Assembly: GCA_017960565.1 (NCBI GenBank)
Contig: JAGCYY010000032.1
Location: 1 to 35,307 of the forward strand
Length of the DNA stretch: 35,307 nt
Source of the DNA: a bacterium
GTDB lineage: Bacteria > Bacillota_I > Bacilli_A > Izemoplasmatales > UBA1188
Direction: 5' to 3'
The notes under the pieces are model-generated. The model was not told the DNA's origin. It worked only from the letters and a program-made list of their open reading frames with translations, and did not search any database. Below, piece by piece: positions 1,920 to 11,475 of this stretch; position 1 is the first letter of the stretch; every line of letters begins with the position of its first letter. Made by a program: the position numbers and the translations under genes.

Positions 1920-3257
1920 TTAAATTAATGAAATTATCAAGAATAAGAAGAATAGTACAACGATAGCTCCAATGACAGATAAACTTATGATTGTGCCTTT
2001 TCTACACGCCTTGAAATTTCGGTAATATTTAATATGTTTAAATACTATCCAACCAACGATACCGAGGATTGGAAGAATGAATGAACCAACTGCATACCAA
2101 TTGCTTCCTGTATCTCCTACTGGAATATCGAGGATTGATTCACCTTGTGGAAGAACTTCTTCTTCATGCGTTTTTTGGATATTTGGTCTTTCTTCACCAG
2201 GTTCTAAAATTGTGATTGATTTTAAAGGGACACCTGATTCTCTAATTTTCTTGTATTCAGCGATTTCAGCTTCATTGCCGAATACTAGATGCCCATGACC
2301 AATATCGTGCATCTTAGGCATATCTCCAGTGTAACCTTTTTCATTATACTCATGAATTTTAGGGTTATATGTAAATAAGATTTTGTTTTTCTCAAGAAGT
2401 GGATCAGGAATTGGAATCGCTGATATTAATGATCTAGTGTATGGATGAAGTGGATAATCAAATAATTCAACTGCATCTGCAACTTCTACTATATCACCTT
2501 TATAGATAACACCGATTCTATCCGAAATAAATCTAACGATAGAAAGATCGTGTGCTATGAATAGATAGGTGATTCCTTTTTCTTCTTGGAACTTCTTAAG
2601 AAGATTTAATACTTGAGCACGAATTGATACATCAAGTGCTGAAATAGGTTCATCAGCTACTATAAATTCAGGTTCCATGACAATAGCACGAGCAAGACCG
2701 ATACGTTGACGTTGTCCACCTGAGAATTCATGAGGATAACGAGTTAAGTGTTCAGGAAGAAGACCAACTTCTTTGATGATGTTTTCTACTTTTTGAACAC
2801 GATCAGCTTCATTTTCAAATAGATGGAAATTATATAAACCTTCAGATACTATATAGTCTACTGTCGCTCTTTCATTTAATGATGCAGCAGGGTCTTGGAA
2901 AACCATTTGAATGTTTCTTATTACTTCTCTATCTAATGTGCTTGGGATTTTACCAGAAATTCTTACACCCTTATAACAAATTTCACCATTGGCACAAGGA
3001 TTGACTCTGATGATTGCCCTACCAATTGTGGTTTTGCCGGAACCTGATTCGCCAACGAGAGAGAATGTTTCACCTTTATAAATATCAAATGAAGCATTTT
3101 TTACAGCCTTAACGGCGTTTTCGCCTTTTCCAAATGTGATATCAACATTTTTTAGTGATACTAGTATTTCTTTACCATTTTCCGCTATTGGACCATGTTC
3201 TGGAAAGTGTGAAGCTGTGCTTTGAGGAGTGATTTTTTCTATATTTTCTTGTTTCAT
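1920..3257 (-). CDS. oppF: Oligopeptide ABC importer ATPase OppF with C-terminal membrane helices
   Basis: This is one of the two ATPases that power the Opp peptide importer on the cytoplasmic face. Walker A GESGSGKT is at residues 69-76, Q-loop [10 protein letters not shown] near 120-129, signature FSGGQRQR at 178-185, Walker B and catalytic Glu in IVADEP at 199-204, and the switch His in IAHDLS near 233-238. A family-typical C-terminal region (about 255-300) follows. Beyond it the protein is unusual: about 80 further hydrophilic residues, then two hydrophobic helices (about 390-408 and 423-443) that would anchor the ATPase in the membrane. Usual OppF proteins are about 310-330 residues and soluble. 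It starts 13 bp after oppD with a GGAGGAATGA ribosome binding site and ends the opp operon. Confidence 0.93.
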
Positions 3258-3269
3258 ATATCATTCCTC

Positions 3270-5018
3270 CTAAATATTGAAAGCCTTGATAAGCTTTTCA
3301 TGAATATTTTGAATAGCTTCAGGTTTTTCAATTTTTGGTGCACGTGGATCTAATAACCAAGTTTTTGCATAATGTGTATCAGATACTTTAAACATTGGCG
3401 AATCTAACATTGTATCAATCTTTAAACAATATGGATTTCTTGGAGCGAATGGGTCACCTACAATCTTATTATAAAGAGATGGAGGTGTACCAGATATTGA
3501 ATATAGTTTTGTATTCTTTTGTGCTAATTGTGGGAGCGATGAAAGAAGTGCCCAAGTATATGGATGTCTTGGATCATAGAATACTTCTTCTACAGTTCCT
3601 AGTTCAACTAGTTGTCCAGCATATAGAACAGCTACTCTATCTGCGATATTCGCAACGACACCAAGGTCGTGAGTAATAAATACTATTGTATAATTAAATT
3701 CTTTTTGTAAATCTTTAATTAATTTTAAAATTTGAGCTTGAATTGTAACATCAAGTGCAGTAGTTGGTTCATCGCAGATAAGAATCTTAGGTTGACATGA
3801 CAAGGCAATCGCAATAACGATTCTTTGTCTCATACCACCAGAGTATTGGAATGGATAGTCATCATAACGATTTTCTGCGTTAGGAATACCTACTTTTTTC
3901 ATGAGTTCAACAGCTCTTACTCTAGCTTCACCTTCAGATACTTTTTGGTGTTTCATGATGATTGATGTGATCTGTTTTCCAATTGTAATGATTGGGTTCA
4001 GTGATGTCATAGGATCTTGGAAAATAGTCGCAACTTTTCTACCACGAATGAGTTGCCAGTCTTTAGTGTATTTTACTTTAGCTAGATCAGCGAAACATGT
4101 ACCATGGATCTTTTCTTCATCTTCGCCGATATATTTAACTCTAAATACTACTGTATCAAATATTTTGTTTAAAGTGTCTTCATTAGTTAGGTTTACACCA
4201 AATCTCATAGCTTTCTTGATGGTTCTTTTGAGTTTGTTTATAAGACCTACTCTACTTAAAAGACCATATCTTCCGACAGAAAGATATATTTCTTTTGCGA
4301 TGATGAGATTACGTTTATTCATATCTTCTGTGATATCTTTTAGAATCTCAAGGTCGTATCTTGATTTTAACTCGTTCATCTGACGAGTATATCTCTCGTT
4401 ATATTCAGTGTTGTTAGCGAGATCTTCTTTGTATTTTTTTAGAAGATTCTTTCTTTCTTCTTCTAAAACTGCGATTTGTTTTGTAAGATTATTGATCTTA
4501 TTTTGTTCAGCAATTATAAGATCTTTTTCTTTAGATGGATCAAAAGTTTGTTTTAAGTTGAAAGATTCAGTTCTTTCATAGATGAGATCAGCGATTTTGT
4601 TGTCAAATTCTTCTTTTTCTTCATTAGAAAGAGACATCATTCTTCTTCTTTCAGCCCTAAGATCAAGCATCTTTATATAGGTGTCTGAACCAAATTCAAG
4701 AGAAGAATATTTATTGAGCGATTTATGGATACTCTTTACAAAATATTCTTCAATTTTGCCTTTGCTGACATCTGTTTTTTGTAAATCTGGTTCATTGAAT
4801 AGAATTGAACCATTGCTTATGAAACCATTCTGGTCAAGCATTCCAGCGAAAGTCTTGGTGAATACTGATTTACCGGAACCTGATTCACCAACAATAGCGA
4901 TTGATTCATTTTCATATACATCAAGACTGATGCCACGAATAGCTGTAAGAATACGTCCACGAACTTTGAACTTTACTTCGAGGTCCTTGATTGAAAGTAA
5001 TACATTTTTATCTTCCAT
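3270..5018 (-). CDS. oppD: Oligopeptide ABC importer ATPase OppD with a large internal insertion
   Basis: This is the second ATPase of the Opp importer. Walker A GESGSGKS is at residues 44-51, but the Q-loop [10 protein letters not shown] only appears at 333-342, whereas in ordinary OppD it follows about 50 residues after Walker A. The extra 235 or so residues (about 85-320) are highly charged and include a Lys/Glu-rich stretch (about 160-225) that looks like a coiled coil. The rest is canonical: YSGGMRQR at 392-399, Walker B ILICDEP at 412-418, H-loop ITHDLG further on, and a C-terminal Cys-containing segment typical of OppD (RNPYC). The gene sits 9 bp after oppC, and its start follows a GAGGTGAAAT ribosome binding site. 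Sequence identity to known inserts cannot be tested here. Confidence 0.93.
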
Positions 5019-5027
5019 ATTTCACCT

Positions 5028-6017
5028 CTACATATGAGTTCTTGGGTCGCTTGCGTCACCTAAATTTTGACCAACGACATAAAGAACGACTGTGATGATT
5101 GATGCAATAACGACAGGGCTCCAGAATTCAAATTCCCAGCCAACTGTAGACATCGCAACTTGGTTTTCATATATCAATCTACCAAGAGATCTATCAGTTA
5201 AACCAATACCGATATATGATAAGAACACTTCATTTGAAATATAAGATGGAATTTCAGTCGCAAGTAATGTGACAATAACTGAAGTCATAAAAGGTAGAAT
5301 ATTTCTCATTGTCAGACGGAATATTGGTGTTCCAAGACAACGAGATGCAAGATTATATTCTCGATCACGAATAATAATTACCTGGGTTCTAATAAAGTAG
5401 GCTATACCTAGCCACCCAGTGACAGTTAAGGCAAATACCATAGTCCAGAAATTCGCCGATAATATCAACACAAGAACGGAAATTAAGAGAATATATGGAA
5501 CGTTACCGACAATATTATATACTTCTGTCATAATGAGGTCCATCTTCTTTGAAAATCCCCATATAGCACCGATTACTACACCGATAGTCATATTGATTGC
5601 GGCACAGATAAGTGCTAGAGAAATTGAAATACTAGATCCATACCAGATTTCATCGAATGTTGATTGTCCTGAGTTACCAGTACCAAGAATGTAGTGAATT
5701 GAAAAACCAAATTTTTGGATGGCAGGCCCAGGTTTTAAGTGTTTAGAACCATCTATTAGTAGATTCTTGAATGGATCTACTTTTGGATCATATCCAATAA
5801 TTAATGGATAGATATATGCGAATATAATAATTAAAGCGAGTAATATTAGAATAATAATATTGATTTTGTTTTTAAAGAAAACTCTAAAAACTGATTTCCA
5901 ATATGAATATCTAGGGGCTGTAATCTTTTCAGAATCGGAATTAGAATTATCATATTTAGTGAATAGTTCACTTTCAGATAAGTTTAAAGATGAAAGATCA
6001 TATAATTCATTATCCAT
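5028..6017 (-). CDS. oppC: Oligopeptide ABC importer permease OppC
   Basis: This is an inner-membrane permease subunit that pairs with OppB to form the peptide channel. An N-terminal cytoplasmic tail of about 45 residues is followed by a membrane helix (about 51-75), an extracytoplasmic loop, and five more hydrophobic segments. The binding-protein-dependent transport motif (EAA loop) that docks on the ATPases lies around residues 224-245 (ASRCLGTPIFRLTMRNILP). The C-terminal GQNLGDASDPR is the usual OppC/DppC ending. The length (329 aa) is normal for the family. It starts 3 bp after oppB and precedes oppD. Confidence 0.94.
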   Translation of the reverse strand: MDNELYDLSSLNLSESELFTKYDNSNSDSEKITAPRYSYWKSVFRVFFKNKINIIILILLALIIIFAYIYPLIIGYDPKVDPFKNLLIDGSKHLKPGPAIQKFGFSIHYILGTGNSGQSTFDEIWYGSSISISLALICAAINMTIGVVIGAIWGFSKKMDLIMTEVYNIVGNVPYILLISVLVLILSANFWTMVFALTVTGWLGIAYFIRTQVIIIRDREYNLASRCLGTPIFRLTMRNILPFMTSVIVTLLATEIPSYISNEVFLSYIGIGLTDRSLGRLIYENQVAMSTVGWEFEFWSPVVIASIITVVLYVVGQNLGDASDPRTHM

Positions 6018-6020
6018 AAA

Positions 6021-7601
6021 CTAAGCCCTTCCTTTCGATGAGAATGAAATTCTAGGGTCAACCATACTCATTAGTAAGTCACCTAAAATGATAGAAATTA
6101 CTGATAATGTTGAATAGAAGAGTGTTATACCAACTATTACACCATTATCATAATAGTTAATCGCTTTTGTAAGAACATTACCAACACCAGGAACTACATA
6201 TACACGTTCAGTTACGATAGCACCTGTTAAAGAGAATAAGATACTTCCAGGAATACCATGCACAATAGGTATTGCAGCATTCTTTAAGATATGTTTTCTA
6301 AATATTTCGCCTTCAGAAAGACCGCCTGATCTTGCAAATTTAACATAGTCAGAATTCATTTGGTCAATCATGTATCTTCTTAACCACTTCATAAGTCCAG
6401 CGATTGATGGAAGGGCAAGAGATACAATTGGAAGGATATACATTGCGATATTTGTCTTTTCAGTATCAAAGGTCGTTGGTAAATTAAATAATTTATTACC
6501 AAGAGCTCTAAACATAAAGATATAAGCTAGAGATGGAACCGCAATTATAAAGATAATATATACTGTACCAATCTTATCGAAGATACCATCTTTATTTCTA
6601 GCCATAATTACACCTAGAGGAATACCCAAGAAATACGCAACAAGAACGGAAATAATACCTATTACGAATGAATATCCCATCCTTGATTTACCACTTAAGT
6701 TTTTATCGACAACTGTATAATCATCAGTGAATCTCAATTCATAAATAGGAAGTGATGTTCTAGAACCATATTGATATCTTGCCGAATGAAGATTATCAGA
6801 TGATTCAGCAATTTCACCTGTTGGATAAACTAATTCTGTTTTTACTAAGGCACCTTGTGTTTGTGTCATTGTTTTCCAAACATCAACATTTTGGTTTACT
6901 GAATATGATAAACCAAGTTTTATTGTGAATAAGTTTTGATGAATGTAAGGGAATTTATTGTCAGTATATAATAAATATTTATAAGTAGTACCATTGCCCA
7001 TTATAGTTGGAGAAAATTTATCTCCATATAAAGGATCATGTAAAGAGAAAGTGATTCTTCTTTCTTCATCAGCTATACCTTGAGCATTGTGGATATTATC
7101 AACCCAAATTAGACCACTAAAAAACTTCCATAATCTTGTAGTTAATGGAATATCTTTAATTGCGAATAATCTTTGTCTACCACCTGATGCAACTTTTACA
7201 GGGGTTAACATTTTAGCATCTAATCTTCTAACAGTATAGCCTTTTGATTTATAATAGTCGGTAAATTTTTTAACATATAATTGAACAATTTCATCATCTT
7301 CTTCTGGTTTTTTTCCGAAGTTTAAAGCACTTCTTCTTTGTTCATCTGTTTCAAATTCACCGTTTTTGGCGATTTCATTTATATAGTCAGAATATGTGAC
7401 ATAATCTAAATATCCATAATCTTCCCATCTTTCATATCTATATACTTCTTTATCGTTGTTCGCATATTTTGTATAATTTGCATCTTGGGCAAATATGAGT
7501 GTTCTATCCATTAATGAATAGATAAGAATCATTACAATCGAAACAACTAGAATTATTGAAAATAATCCGTGGAGTAGACGTCTTAATAAATATTTGGTCA
7601 T
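6021..7601 (-). CDS. oppB: Oligopeptide ABC importer permease OppB with a large extracytoplasmic loop
   Basis: This is the partner permease of OppC. It has an N-terminal membrane helix (about residues 11-31), a hydrophilic segment (about 36-305), and then the usual bundle of five helices from residue 311 on. The EAA loop around residues 422-445 contains ARSGGLSEGEIFRKHILKNA, and the protein ends with the family's MVDPRI motif. Ordinary OppB proteins are about 305-340 residues; this one has 526 because the loop between helices 1 and 2 carries roughly 150-200 extra residues. That loop faces the outside, where it could contact OppA. The gene is 124 bp downstream of oppA, with a stem-loop in the gap. 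Confidence 0.93.
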   Translation of the reverse strand: MTKYLLRRLLHGLFSIILVVSIVMILIYSLMDRTLIFAQDANYTKYANNDKEVYRYERWEDYGYLDYVTYSDYINEIAKNGEFETDEQRRSALNFGKKPEEDDEIVQLYVKKFTDYYKSKGYTVRRLDAKMLTPVKVASGGRQRLFAIKDIPLTTRLWKFFSGLIWVDNIHNAQGIADEERRITFSLHDPLYGDKFSPTIMGNGTTYKYLLYTDNKFPYIHQNLFTIKLGLSYSVNQNVDVWKTMTQTQGALVKTELVYPTGEIAESSDNLHSARYQYGSRTSLPIYELRFTDDYTVVDKNLSGKSRMGYSFVIGIISVLVAYFLGIPLGVIMARNKDGIFDKIGTVYIIFIIAVPSLAYIFMFRALGNKLFNLPTTFDTEKTNIAMYILPIVSLALPSIAGLMKWLRRYMIDQMNSDYVKFARSGGLSEGEIFRKHILKNAAIPIVHGIPGSILFSLTGAIVTERVYVVPGVGNVLTKAINYYDNGVIVGITLFYSTLSVISIILGDLLMSMVDPRISFSSKGRA

Positions 7602-7725: not shown

Positions 7726-9987
7726 CTAGAAGATACCTACACATTTAACCATGTAACCTGCGAAGTCTGGTAAGAATGTGTCAAGATAAGTTTGTGGATC
7801 ACCATAGTCAGGTCCCCAACCAGATACATCATAAATATCATAGTTAGCTTGATAACCGAAATCTGTGTAATAACCAGCGTAGTACCAAGCAGAGCTTGTT
7901 GAGCAAGTTACTAAGTTGATTACAACGTTACCACCAAGAACATTCTTAACTGATTGAGCGAATGCATTAGCTCTATTTAAGTATGTTGTTGAACCAGAGA
8001 AGCAAGGGAGGTCAATGTAGATTGGAGTAGTGATGTTCTTAGCACCTTTAGCAGTTACTGTAACTTCACCAGAATCTTTATCTGTCTTGAATGTTAAAGT
8101 TCCAGCTGCTACTAATGCATCAACAGCTTTGTTGTATGCAGCTACAGCAGCTTCTTCATTAAACCAACCATCGAAACCAGATGAAGCACCGATACCACCA
8201 TCAGCATCTTGATCCCATACTTTGAATGCATATCCATCAGCAGTGATTACATCTTGCATAATCTTGCCATAGAAAGTGCCAGCTGGATAAGTTTTTTCTT
8301 CACCACCAACAGTGATTGTAGTTTCATTTGGTAGAGATACGAATGTACCAGGAGTATAAGAGTTGATGAGTGAAGTTAATGCTAATTCTTCACCAACAGC
8401 TTGAGCGTTGTAAGCTTCTCTATCTAATGCGTAGCATAATGCAAGTCTGAAATCTTGTAAGCCCATTGCAGCTTTAGATACAGCTTTTTCAGAATCATTC
8501 TTATCTGAAGAAGCTTTAGAAGGGTCGTTAACGTTAGCGTATTGAGAACGGTTGATGTTGAAGAATCCCATGAATGAAGTTGCATCAGTACCACTTGTGT
8601 AATGATATGTTTCGAACCAAGATTTATCAGTTCCTTCAACTAAGTCTGCTTTAGATTGTGCTAAAGATGTTGCACTTAAACCAGCGCCTGCATAGTGACC
8701 TTCTTTCATTCCGTTGTAAGCTTTTAATGGATCTGTACCATCGTTGAATTCCCAAACGATTTCAGTGATGTTGATGTTGTCTTTGTTCCAATATTTAGGG
8801 TTAGCTTCGAAAGTGATCTTTGTTTCAGCTGTATTTTGTTTTACAAGATATGGTCCACAGTAAGCGATGTTAGCAGGAGTTTTACCATATGTGTAATCTT
8901 CAGCTTTAGCATCGAATTCAGCACCGAATTTACCACCTTGAGATGTATAATAAGCTCTACTTAATGGAGCAAATACACCATAACCGAACATAGTATCGAA
9001 GAATGAGCATGGTTCAACAAGTGTATATTCTAATGTAGTATCATTAATAGCCTTAACACCTACTTGAGCGAAATCAGTAACGTCGCCTTCGATATATTCT
9101 GTAGCATTAACGATAATGCCTTGGATTAGATATTCTAAACCACCAGCAACGTCACACATATGTTGCATACCAGCTACGAAGTCATCAGCTTTAACGTCAG
9201 CAACTTTGTTACCATCTTGGTCAACCCATTCAAGACCGCTCTTTAATGTGATAGTTACAGTTTTACCATCTTGAGATACAACTGGAAGATCAGCAGCTAG
9301 AGCTGGTTTTAATTGGTTTTCAACATCGTATTCATAAAGACCATCATAAGTATTAACGATAGCTTCAGAGTCAGCTGCTCTAGAAGTAGCGAGAACGTCC
9401 CAAGTTTGAGGGTCAGAAGAATAACCAAGTGTATAAGTGTCGTTTAGAGTGAATCCATTATCAGCTAACCAAGCTTTAGCTCTTTCTTCATAAGCGCCAG
9501 TGCCTTTAACTTCAGCGTAGATAGCTTTGAGTTCATTTCTTTGAGCTTCTGTTAATGGTTGTTCATTAACGATTAAAGCTTGATGATATCTATAGCTATC
9601 ATTTCCCCATAATGCTGGAGTGATAGAATATGGAACAACTCTTGAAATTGCATAGTTACCACCATTAGATGATAATGGTAATAAAGTACCAGATTCAATT
9701 AATTTTGCTTCTGCAACAGCCATTAATGCGAATCTCTTACCAAGATCAACGTTTTCAGCTTTAGCGAGTGCATAAGCTGCCTTGAAATCTGCATAAACTT
9801 CATTGTAAATAGCAGTTGATTCAGCAACGTAAGCTTCAAGATCAAAGTCATCTGTATCGCCAGATCCTGATGCAGTTGTAGTTACATCATCTCCACTTTT
9901 TGCAGTTGTAGTTTCATCGCCGCCTTTACAAGCAACAAGTCCAACCACGAGGAGAAGAGCAACTAATAATGATAATAATTTTTTCAT
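7726..9987 (-). CDS. oppA: Oligopeptide-binding lipoprotein OppA, apparently circularly permuted
   Basis: This is an extracytoplasmic solute-binding lipoprotein that captures peptides for OppBCDF. It has a signal peptide with lipobox VGLVAC (lipidated Cys20) and a Thr/Ser/Gly/Asp-rich linker (about 21-48). The classical start of the SBP_bac_5 fold (YTLGYSSDPQTWD, then DGLYEYD and KPALAADLPV) only begins near residue 185. The protein stops just after GDPQTYLDTF (about residue 738), where relatives continue for about 100 more residues. The missing piece appears to be at the N-terminus: residues 50-140 contain DLGKRFALMAVAEAKLIESG and TLLPL, which match the usual C-terminal region. The 753-residue length is large. 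The ribosome binding site is AAAGGAGAGA and a good promoter lies upstream. Confidence 0.9.
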   Translation of the reverse strand: MKKLLSLLVALLLVVGLVACKGGDETTTAKSGDDVTTTASGSGDTDDFDLEAYVAESTAIYNEVYADFKAAYALAKAENVDLGKRFALMAVAEAKLIESGTLLPLSSNGGNYAISRVVPYSITPALWGNDSYRYHQALIVNEQPLTEAQRNELKAIYAEVKGTGAYEERAKAWLADNGFTLNDTYTLGYSSDPQTWDVLATSRAADSEAIVNTYDGLYEYDVENQLKPALAADLPVVSQDGKTVTITLKSGLEWVDQDGNKVADVKADDFVAGMQHMCDVAGGLEYLIQGIIVNATEYIEGDVTDFAQVGVKAINDTTLEYTLVEPCSFFDTMFGYGVFAPLSRAYYTSQGGKFGAEFDAKAEDYTYGKTPANIAYCGPYLVKQNTAETKITFEANPKYWNKDNINITEIVWEFNDGTDPLKAYNGMKEGHYAGAGLSATSLAQSKADLVEGTDKSWFETYHYTSGTDATSFMGFFNINRSQYANVNDPSKASSDKNDSEKAVSKAAMGLQDFRLALCYALDREAYNAQAVGEELALTSLINSYTPGTFVSLPNETTITVGGEEKTYPAGTFYGKIMQDVITADGYAFKVWDQDADGGIGASSGFDGWFNEEAAVAAYNKAVDALVAAGTLTFKTDKDSGEVTVTAKGAKNITTPIYIDLPCFSGSTTYLNRANAFAQSVKNVLGGNVVINLVTCSTSSAWYYAGYYTDFGYQANYDIYDVSGWGPDYGDPQTYLDTFLPDFAGYMVKCVGIF

Positions 9988-10164: not shown

Positions 10165-11475
10165 CTAACTTATATAATATGTATAGTTTTTGAAAATTCC
10201 TTTTCTTGGGCATCTTTGTAACACGTGTTTCTGTTTTGTTACAGGATGAATAAATTCTAGCTTATATGCATCAAGTCCAAGCTTATAATCAGTTCTTTCA
10301 ATCATGCTTTTATATTTGATGTCGTTGAAGATTGGATGGCCTATATTCGATAACTGAAATCTTATTTGATGGAACCTACCTGTCTCTATATATACTTTTA
10401 AAAGAGATAAGTCTTGTTTCTCATCATAATTTAATACTTTATATTTCAAAATAGCGATTTTTCCATCTTCACTACTATAAGCAATCTTCTTTCCTTCGTC
10501 TTTAGAAATATAGTCAACCAAAGTATCTTCTTCTTTTTGAAGCTTTCCATAGACGACTGCAAGATAAGTCTTTATTGGTCTCATTTCGTTTAATCTTTTA
10601 GATGCTTTTGAAGTTTTAGAAAAAATCATAAGTCCTGACACATTCCTATCGAGTCTTTGGATTAATCCTAGATACACGTTACCTGGTTTATTATATTTAA
10701 TCTTAAGATATTTTTTTGTAAGCGATAGAATATCAGCGTCTTTTGATTCATCTTCTTGTGATAATATTCCTGCTTCTTTTTCGACTACTATCACTTGACT
10801 ATCTTCGTAATATACATTAATAGATAATTCATTTTCAATAATTTTATATAGTTCCTCTTGATTTTTGAAAGGAATGAAATGATCAGCACTAGGAATAATA
10901 TAGAGAGCGGAATTTGTGAATGATTCAGCAATCAATTCTAAATGGTCTTTTCTTATTAAATCATTTTCACCACCGATTATTATCGCTCTTGCGCTAACTT
11001 TTCTTAAATCATCTTTATCGATGTTAGGTTCTTCTAAGCATAATTTTGAATAGATAGATTTTGTTTCAAGATAATCTTGTTTAAGATATTCAATGCATTT
11101 AGAAGTCAAACCTTCAGGCGACAAATTTGGACCAATCAAAAATAATTTATCGATGTTATCACATTCTAGCGACATCAAGATTCCAACAATTGCACCATCT
11201 GAAAAACCGATTATAGAATATCTATCGATGTTTTCATCTTTGACAAATAGTTCAATATCATTTTTGATAGTGTCATATGTGAGAATTGAAAATGATGATT
11301 TTCCATGACATCTTGAATCTATAAAATATAAAGAATAATCTTGTAATTTATCAAAGAAGAAAGCAAATGTGTCTAAATTTTCACCATTGCCATGTAGAAA
11401 AAGGAGGGGATAACCCTCCATATTTCCAAAATGTTCATAGTTTAAACTAATACCATTTTCTAAGACTTTGATCAT
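10165..11475 (-). CDS. Alpha/beta hydrolase fused to RluA-type pseudouridine synthase
   Basis: One uninterrupted frame of 436 residues encodes two domains. Residues 1-217 form an alpha/beta hydrolase: oxyanion-type LHGNGEN at 27-33, nucleophile elbow GFSDG with Ser92, and likely acid and base Asp172 (GGENDLI) and His199 (SADHF). Residues 218-436 form an RluA-family RNA pseudouridine synthase: the YYEDSQVIVVEK start, catalytic Asp276 in QRLDRNVSG (the usual His before RLD is Gln273), and GRFHQIRFQLSNIGHPI near the end. There is no S4 RNA-binding domain; the hydrolase takes its place. The synthase half would isomerise uridine in rRNA or tRNA, while the hydrolase substrate is unknown. The gene starts 2 bp after the CvpA-like gene and is probably co-transcribed with it. 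Confidence 0.88.
   Translation of the reverse strand: MIKVLENGISLNYEHFGNMEGYPLLFLHGNGENLDTFAFFFDKLQDYSLYFIDSRCHGKSSFSILTYDTIKNDIELFVKDENIDRYSIIGFSDGAIVGILMSLECDNIDKLFLIGPNLSPEGLTSKCIEYLKQDYLETKSIYSKLCLEEPNIDKDDLRKVSARAIIIGGENDLIRKDHLELIAESFTNSALYIIPSADHFIPFKNQEELYKIIENELSINVYYEDSQVIVVEKEAGILSQEDESKDADILSLTKKYLKIKYNKPGNVYLGLIQRLDRNVSGLMIFSKTSKASKRLNEMRPIKTYLAVVYGKLQKEEDTLVDYISKDEGKKIAYSSEDGKIAILKYKVLNYDEKQDLSLLKVYIETGRFHQIRFQLSNIGHPIFNDIKYKSMIERTDYKLGLDAYKLEFIHPVTKQKHVLQRCPRKGIFKNYTYYIS

Follow-up and report, generated by a model that had tools for sequence, protein, structure and literature searches.

Sequence evidence for a circularly permuted peptide receptor in an Ami/Opp-type oligopeptide importer

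In oligopeptide-binding proteins of the OppA family, a C-terminal block normally follows the middle domain. The oppA gene found in the window (the whole stretch of 35,307 nucleotides analysed here) departs from this order: its product stops 22 residues past the GWGPDYGDP motif, whereas about 110-150 residues come after the motif in classical relatives. The locus thus raises the question of what became of the rest of the receptor. An earlier note on this DNA proposed that OppA is circularly permuted, its C-terminal segment having moved to the N-terminus. The early chain end that it described is real, and so is the lack of any downstream continuation: the frame is open and only 124 nt separate the oppA stop codon from oppB, which means that no continuation of OppA is missing. 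The block expected at the C-terminus was instead met at residues 50-165, ahead of the body. The gene and its product are laid out as follows.

7726..9987 (-), oppA, circularly permuted oligopeptide-binding protein of 753 aa, ATG start
9928..9987 (-), signal peptide with lipobox LVAC (Cys20), read from the sequence
9850..9927 (-), low-complexity tether, residues 21-46, from the sequence and a pLDDT below 50 in the first AF2 model
9493..9840 (-), block moved to the front, residues 50-165, which is homologous to the final ~105 residues in AmiA-type OppA of classical order
9442..9492 (-), new linker, residues 166-182, between the original C- and N-termini, placed by alignment and the classical ends
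7774..9441 (-), classical OppA body, residues 183-738 (SBP_bac_5 match at 226-740)
7795..7821 (-), GWGPDYGDP motif, residues 723-731
7729..7773 (-), tail at the new C-terminus, residues 739-753, corresponding to the stretch that ends in NGDMLKxFGL in classical proteins

The matches of OppA to PDB chains in phmmer run out of order. Residues 184-556 correspond to residues 15-361 of AmiA and residues 633-738 to 390-497, and residues 75-149 correspond to AmiA 534-610. AliB, AliC and AliD gave out-of-order matches of the same kind, in which residues 75-149 fall on the C-termini. This third match is weak in each target (i-E 0.03-0.9), yet alike in all four. Because it is weak by itself, it was retested with family profiles. 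Every open frame of 130 loci was searched with two HMMs, one for the block (residues 50-165) and one for the body (residues 183-738). In 33 classical proteins the block follows the body (E 2e-19 to 3e-6), in about 20 permuted proteins, counted with duplicates removed, the block comes first, and no protein in these frames has it on both sides. In hhalign, body positions 177-721 of the permuted profile align on 52-552 of the classical one (E 8e-114) and block positions 55-157 on 564-669 of 677 (E 7.5e-15, 32% identity), so that the order is inverted. When OppA was reordered in silico, the classical HMM scored 450 bits with the block at the end, compared with 429 bits for the native order and 370-375 bits for controls with a shuffled block. 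All segments of the classical protein are therefore kept and their order is rotated, as in a circular permutation. At the level of sequence, these results show a rotated order, a short fusion linker and a chain end just after the GWGPDY strand, and the permutation accounts for an N-terminal stretch that automatic annotation had left unexplained. The equation of the N-terminal segment with the usual C-terminal block thus holds, although its extent, given before as residues 50-140, is corrected to about 50-165, and the start of the classical N-terminal homology shifts slightly, from near residue 185 to about 183.

The permutation held in each of the sequence tests, and neither outcome that the earlier note had named as refuting it was observed. 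A comparison with the SBP_bac_5 HMM, which had been named as a possible source of refutation, provided none. PF00496 matches OppA collinearly (E 6.9e-35, residues 226-740 on model positions 2-362 of 368), but the model also ends at the GWGPDY region in a classical protein (L057), where the match stops at residue 548 of 671. Since PF00496 stops before the C-terminal block in classical proteins too, a collinear match to it is no evidence of collinearity, and Pfam and NCBIfam matches taken alone, being collinear and partial, were set aside as uninformative. A Mycoplasma OppA match (NCBIfam NF043077) had suggested that Mollicute OppA might also be permuted; the matches from other families whose order could be read, such as those in G267 and G260, are classical.

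The Pfam result, with its single collinear SBP_bac_5 match and nothing above the cut-off in the N-terminal block, is what would be expected if OppA were a C-terminally truncated receptor to which an unrelated N-terminal domain (residues 50-165) had been added. However, the added segment is homologous to the very block that is missing, it never occurs together with a C-terminal copy, and the reordered chain scores about 75 bits above the shuffled-block controls, all of which make this reading very improbable. Even less weight can be given to an artefact of assembly or gene calling, such as mis-joined contigs, a frameshift or fragments of neighbouring genes. The window does come from a draft genome of 35 contigs, but the oppA frame is free of stops with oppB close behind, and a search for homologues with the same order, proposed in the earlier note, recovered collinear genes elsewhere: one of 82% identity in a second assembly, that of a rumen relative (G003/L036), and others in about 15 further assemblies. 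The latter include full-length homologues of about 50% identity in Clostridia, namely Oscillospiraceae and Lachnospiraceae MAGs and the isolate Fusicatenibacter saccharivorans D41t1 (L040). An assembly error is excluded because the second assembly and the isolate genome show the same order.

It is also conceivable that the permutation is real while the protein no longer serves as a peptide receptor and acts, for example, as a signalling or scaffold lipoprotein. Peptide binding by the permuted OppA is a prediction, and a distant, divergent relative (L008/L048, an ORF of 1,012 aa with 36-40% identity) has lost the GWGPDY motif and gained an N-terminal extension of about 300 residues. On the other hand, G723, W724, P726 and D727 are invariant across the aligned permuted family, the complete importer operon is conserved, and the solved structures that come closest are those of peptide receptors. 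We therefore regard a loss of receptor function as improbable. The protein is, with high probability, the circularly permuted receptor of an Ami/Opp-type ABC oligopeptide importer (oppABCDF) that has been re-tethered to the membrane and has spread with its operon, and its function, the capture of peptides for an Ami-type importer, is presumed to be unchanged.

In a classical protein (L059) the order is GWGPDYGDPKTYVDIVDPDSGDMLKYFGL, a variable loop, GLYEFQALKNAAEAIVDDLDLRYELYAKAEAYLLENAILIPYITQGGGYAVSRVVPYT and then about 45 further residues. In the OppA of the window, GWGPDYGDPQTYLDTFLPDFAGYMVKCVGIF is followed by the stop at the end of the chain, and IYNEVYADFKAAYALAKAENVDLGKRFALMAVAEAKLIESGTLLPLSSNGGNYAISRVVPYS comes first after the tether. 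The chain is thus cut within the variable loop and keeps all conserved segments. The members of the permuted family end in GYMxKxxGI(F/Y) with few substitutions in the family alignment. In AliD, Domain I comprises residues 29-63, 191-296 and 583-617, Domain II residues 64-190 and Domain III, which is lobe 2, residues 297-582; the residues that hold the amino end of the peptide, W498 and D501, belong to Domain III (PMC11192437). W724 and D727 of OppA, the counterparts of this pair, are invariant in the family alignment. On this map, Domain I would hold both of the old ends, and the new ends would fall in Domain III, soon after the ligand-binding strand. The N-terminus, and with it the membrane anchor, should thus have shifted from Domain I (lobe 1) to Domain III (lobe 2), so that the receptor would be held by its opposite lobe. 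This alignment with published domains agrees with the earlier proposal that the permutation places the lipid anchor elsewhere on the fold; the change in docking on OppBC that was suggested along with it is a conjecture. We suggest that the permuted OppA keeps the three-domain, two-lobe fold, that it uses the conserved Trp/Asp pair of lobe 2 to bind peptides by their free amino end, and that the receptor closes on its peptide and delivers it to OppBC as AmiA and AliB would.

The lipid anchor is not constant in the permuted family, some members of which carry Tat-like or plain Sec signals. In permuted OppA proteins of Lachnospiraceae (L041-L043, L045 and L047), a Tat-like signal, SRRDFLKG, replaces the lipobox. 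Lipid anchoring was considered as the driver of the permutation, and this idea is weakened because several permuted members have such signals.

A first AF2 model of OppA, from 11 sequences, had a pLDDT of only 71.9. A model of the trimmed protein with 15 sequences reached a pLDDT of 84.5 and a pTM of 0.80. Its nearest solved structures in Foldseek are AliC, AmiA, AliD and AliB, with E values of 1.7e-34 to 4.8e-37. The TM-scores against open AliD are only 0.58 and 0.65, the latter being the best target-normalised value among the Ami receptors, in an alignment that Foldseek makes sequentially. On grounds of homology, the moved block is predicted to pack in its old place in the fold.

By sequence and by model fold, OppA is closest to the pneumococcal receptors AmiA, AliB, AliC and AliD (PDB 8a42, 8qlj, 8qlh and 8qlc). 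They share with it the Trp/Asp motif that binds the amino end, and their partner permease AmiC has a large loop, as OppB has. The Ami receptors differ from OppA in their classical chain order and in being anchored N-terminally on Domain I (lobe 1). Natural circular permutation is rare among transport receptors, and no permuted OppA was found in the open-access literature searched. The only natural precedent found among such receptors is an unrelated sugar-binding protein, Tp0684 (MglB-2) of Treponema pallidum, a naturally permuted, lipid-anchored binding protein of an ABC importer that has relatives in gut Gram-positives and keeps its bilobed fold and ligand-induced closure (PMC4990184). Tp0684 has a type I/cluster B fold, unlike the cluster C family of OppA, and in it the strands that classically come first were transferred to the C-terminus, the cut being elsewhere than in OppA. 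The OppA of the window shows no sign of the type I/cluster B fold, having an SBP_bac_5 match and OppA-family structures only. The permuted OppA offers a natural experiment on whether, and how, the tethered lobe matters for delivery to the permease.

oppA heads an operon in which the order oppA-B-C-D-F is conserved. With the large extracellular loop of its OppB, this oppABCDF operon has the make-up of an Ami-type importer. The partner genes and their unusual segments are as follows.

6021..7601 (-), oppB, 526 aa, large extracellular loop as in AmiC
5028..6017 (-), oppC, 329 aa
3270..5018 (-), oppD, ATPase of 582 aa with an insert
4104..4796 (-), OppD insert of ~233 residues, lying after Walker A and before the Q-loop, for which Pfam gave nothing above the cut-off
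1920..3257 (-), oppF, ATPase of 445 aa
1923..2099 (-), C-terminal two-helix membrane hairpin of OppF, from a hydropathy scan

The earlier note had tied an enlarged OppB loop to the permutation, and this link did not hold. OppB measures 495-544 aa in permuted operons and 490-505 aa in classical ones, and pneumococcal AmiC, at 498 aa, has a large extracellular loop as well (PMC11192437). A large OppB is thus no companion of the permutation, and enlargement of OppB as compensation for it is ruled out, because classical Ami-type systems are equally large. The insert in OppD behaves differently. From Walker A to the Q-loop the distance is 289-299 residues in those permuted operons where the two motifs could be located. 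It is 57 in each of the five classical operons measured, and OppD in the classical Ami-type operons examined is 351-369 aa long and lacks the insert. The insert alone, searched as a 231-residue query, gave matches in 4 of 391 genomes of Clostridia and in 3 of 295 from the window's phylum, and each of these genomes has permuted OppA. The insert is accordingly present in seven of eight permuted genomes and in none of about 678 others. The one permuted genome in which it was not detected is G385, where oppA lies near a contig end. The OppF hairpin is kept in the Clostridia operons with permuted OppA and in the window, and it is absent from the classical and f15 operons examined. The near-strict pairing with the OppD insert suggests that gut and rumen bacteria have a transporter subtype recognisable from sequence.

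In an even sample of genomes, a full-length collinear match to OppA was found in 5 of 391 Clostridia and 3 of 295 members of the window's phylum, and just two of six sampled congeners gave a match. The permuted form is intact and conserved in rumen and gut Clostridia. In trees calculated from the body columns only, with the columns of the C-block left out, the permuted sequences form one clade within the AmiA-type proteins (SH-aLRT 95 and 99 in two data sets), and the oppA of the window is nested among Clostridia genes. This position, together with the matches in only two of six congeners, indicates that the gene was probably transferred horizontally, in one direction or the other. Circular permutations usually arise by gene duplication and fusion followed by trimming. 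In this clade, the permuted gene most likely arose once, when a classical oppA was duplicated in tandem, the copies fused and both outer ends were lost, although no intermediate of duplication or fusion was found among the sampled sequences. The whole operon, OppD insert included, probably then spread with the permuted oppA across gut and rumen Clostridia and some Bacilli.

A second, distant OppA-like family (P2: L019, L023, L029 and L131-L159), of roughly 750-1,500 aa and found widely across related Bacilli families, likewise seems to carry the classical C-terminal helix-strand ahead of its SBP_bac_5 body. Its N-terminal block matches the corresponding place of two independent classical profiles with E values of about 1e-3, a score reached by none of 150 column shuffles, and segments of its body, taken in succession, map in ascending order. 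P2 proteins often have extra Ig-like domains, and in the P2 operons examined (L174 and L175) it is OppC that is enlarged, to 629-646 aa, instead of OppB. The trees place P2 outside the AmiA-type clade, whereas the family of the window (P) is nested among classical AmiA-type proteins, and the P2 cut appears to lie one helix later than that of P, a shift that by itself is not significant. Two independent permutations are therefore likely. A single event would be in keeping with cuts that lie within about one helix of each other and with an AU test that gives no formal rejection of a joint P and P2 clade (p 0.055). In view of the tree positions and of the later start of the P2 block, we consider it rather unlikely; it bears on the history and not on the identity of the protein. 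It is a tentative idea, which we hold at somewhat less than even confidence, that the permuted receptor, the OppD insert and the OppF hairpin form a co-evolved and mechanistically distinct importer subtype held by the opposite lobe, and that permutation occurred near the same Domain III loop at least twice, in P and in P2. If this were true, the two permutations would imply repeated selection for re-tethering.

Two minor observations concern the surroundings of the permuted genes. Tandem copies of permuted oppA were seen in one genome (G372). In the window, positions 10165-11475 (-) encode a fused protein that combines an alpha/beta hydrolase (Abhydrolase_1) with a pseudouridine synthase (PseudoU_synth_2); its gene adjoins oppA in L007 too.
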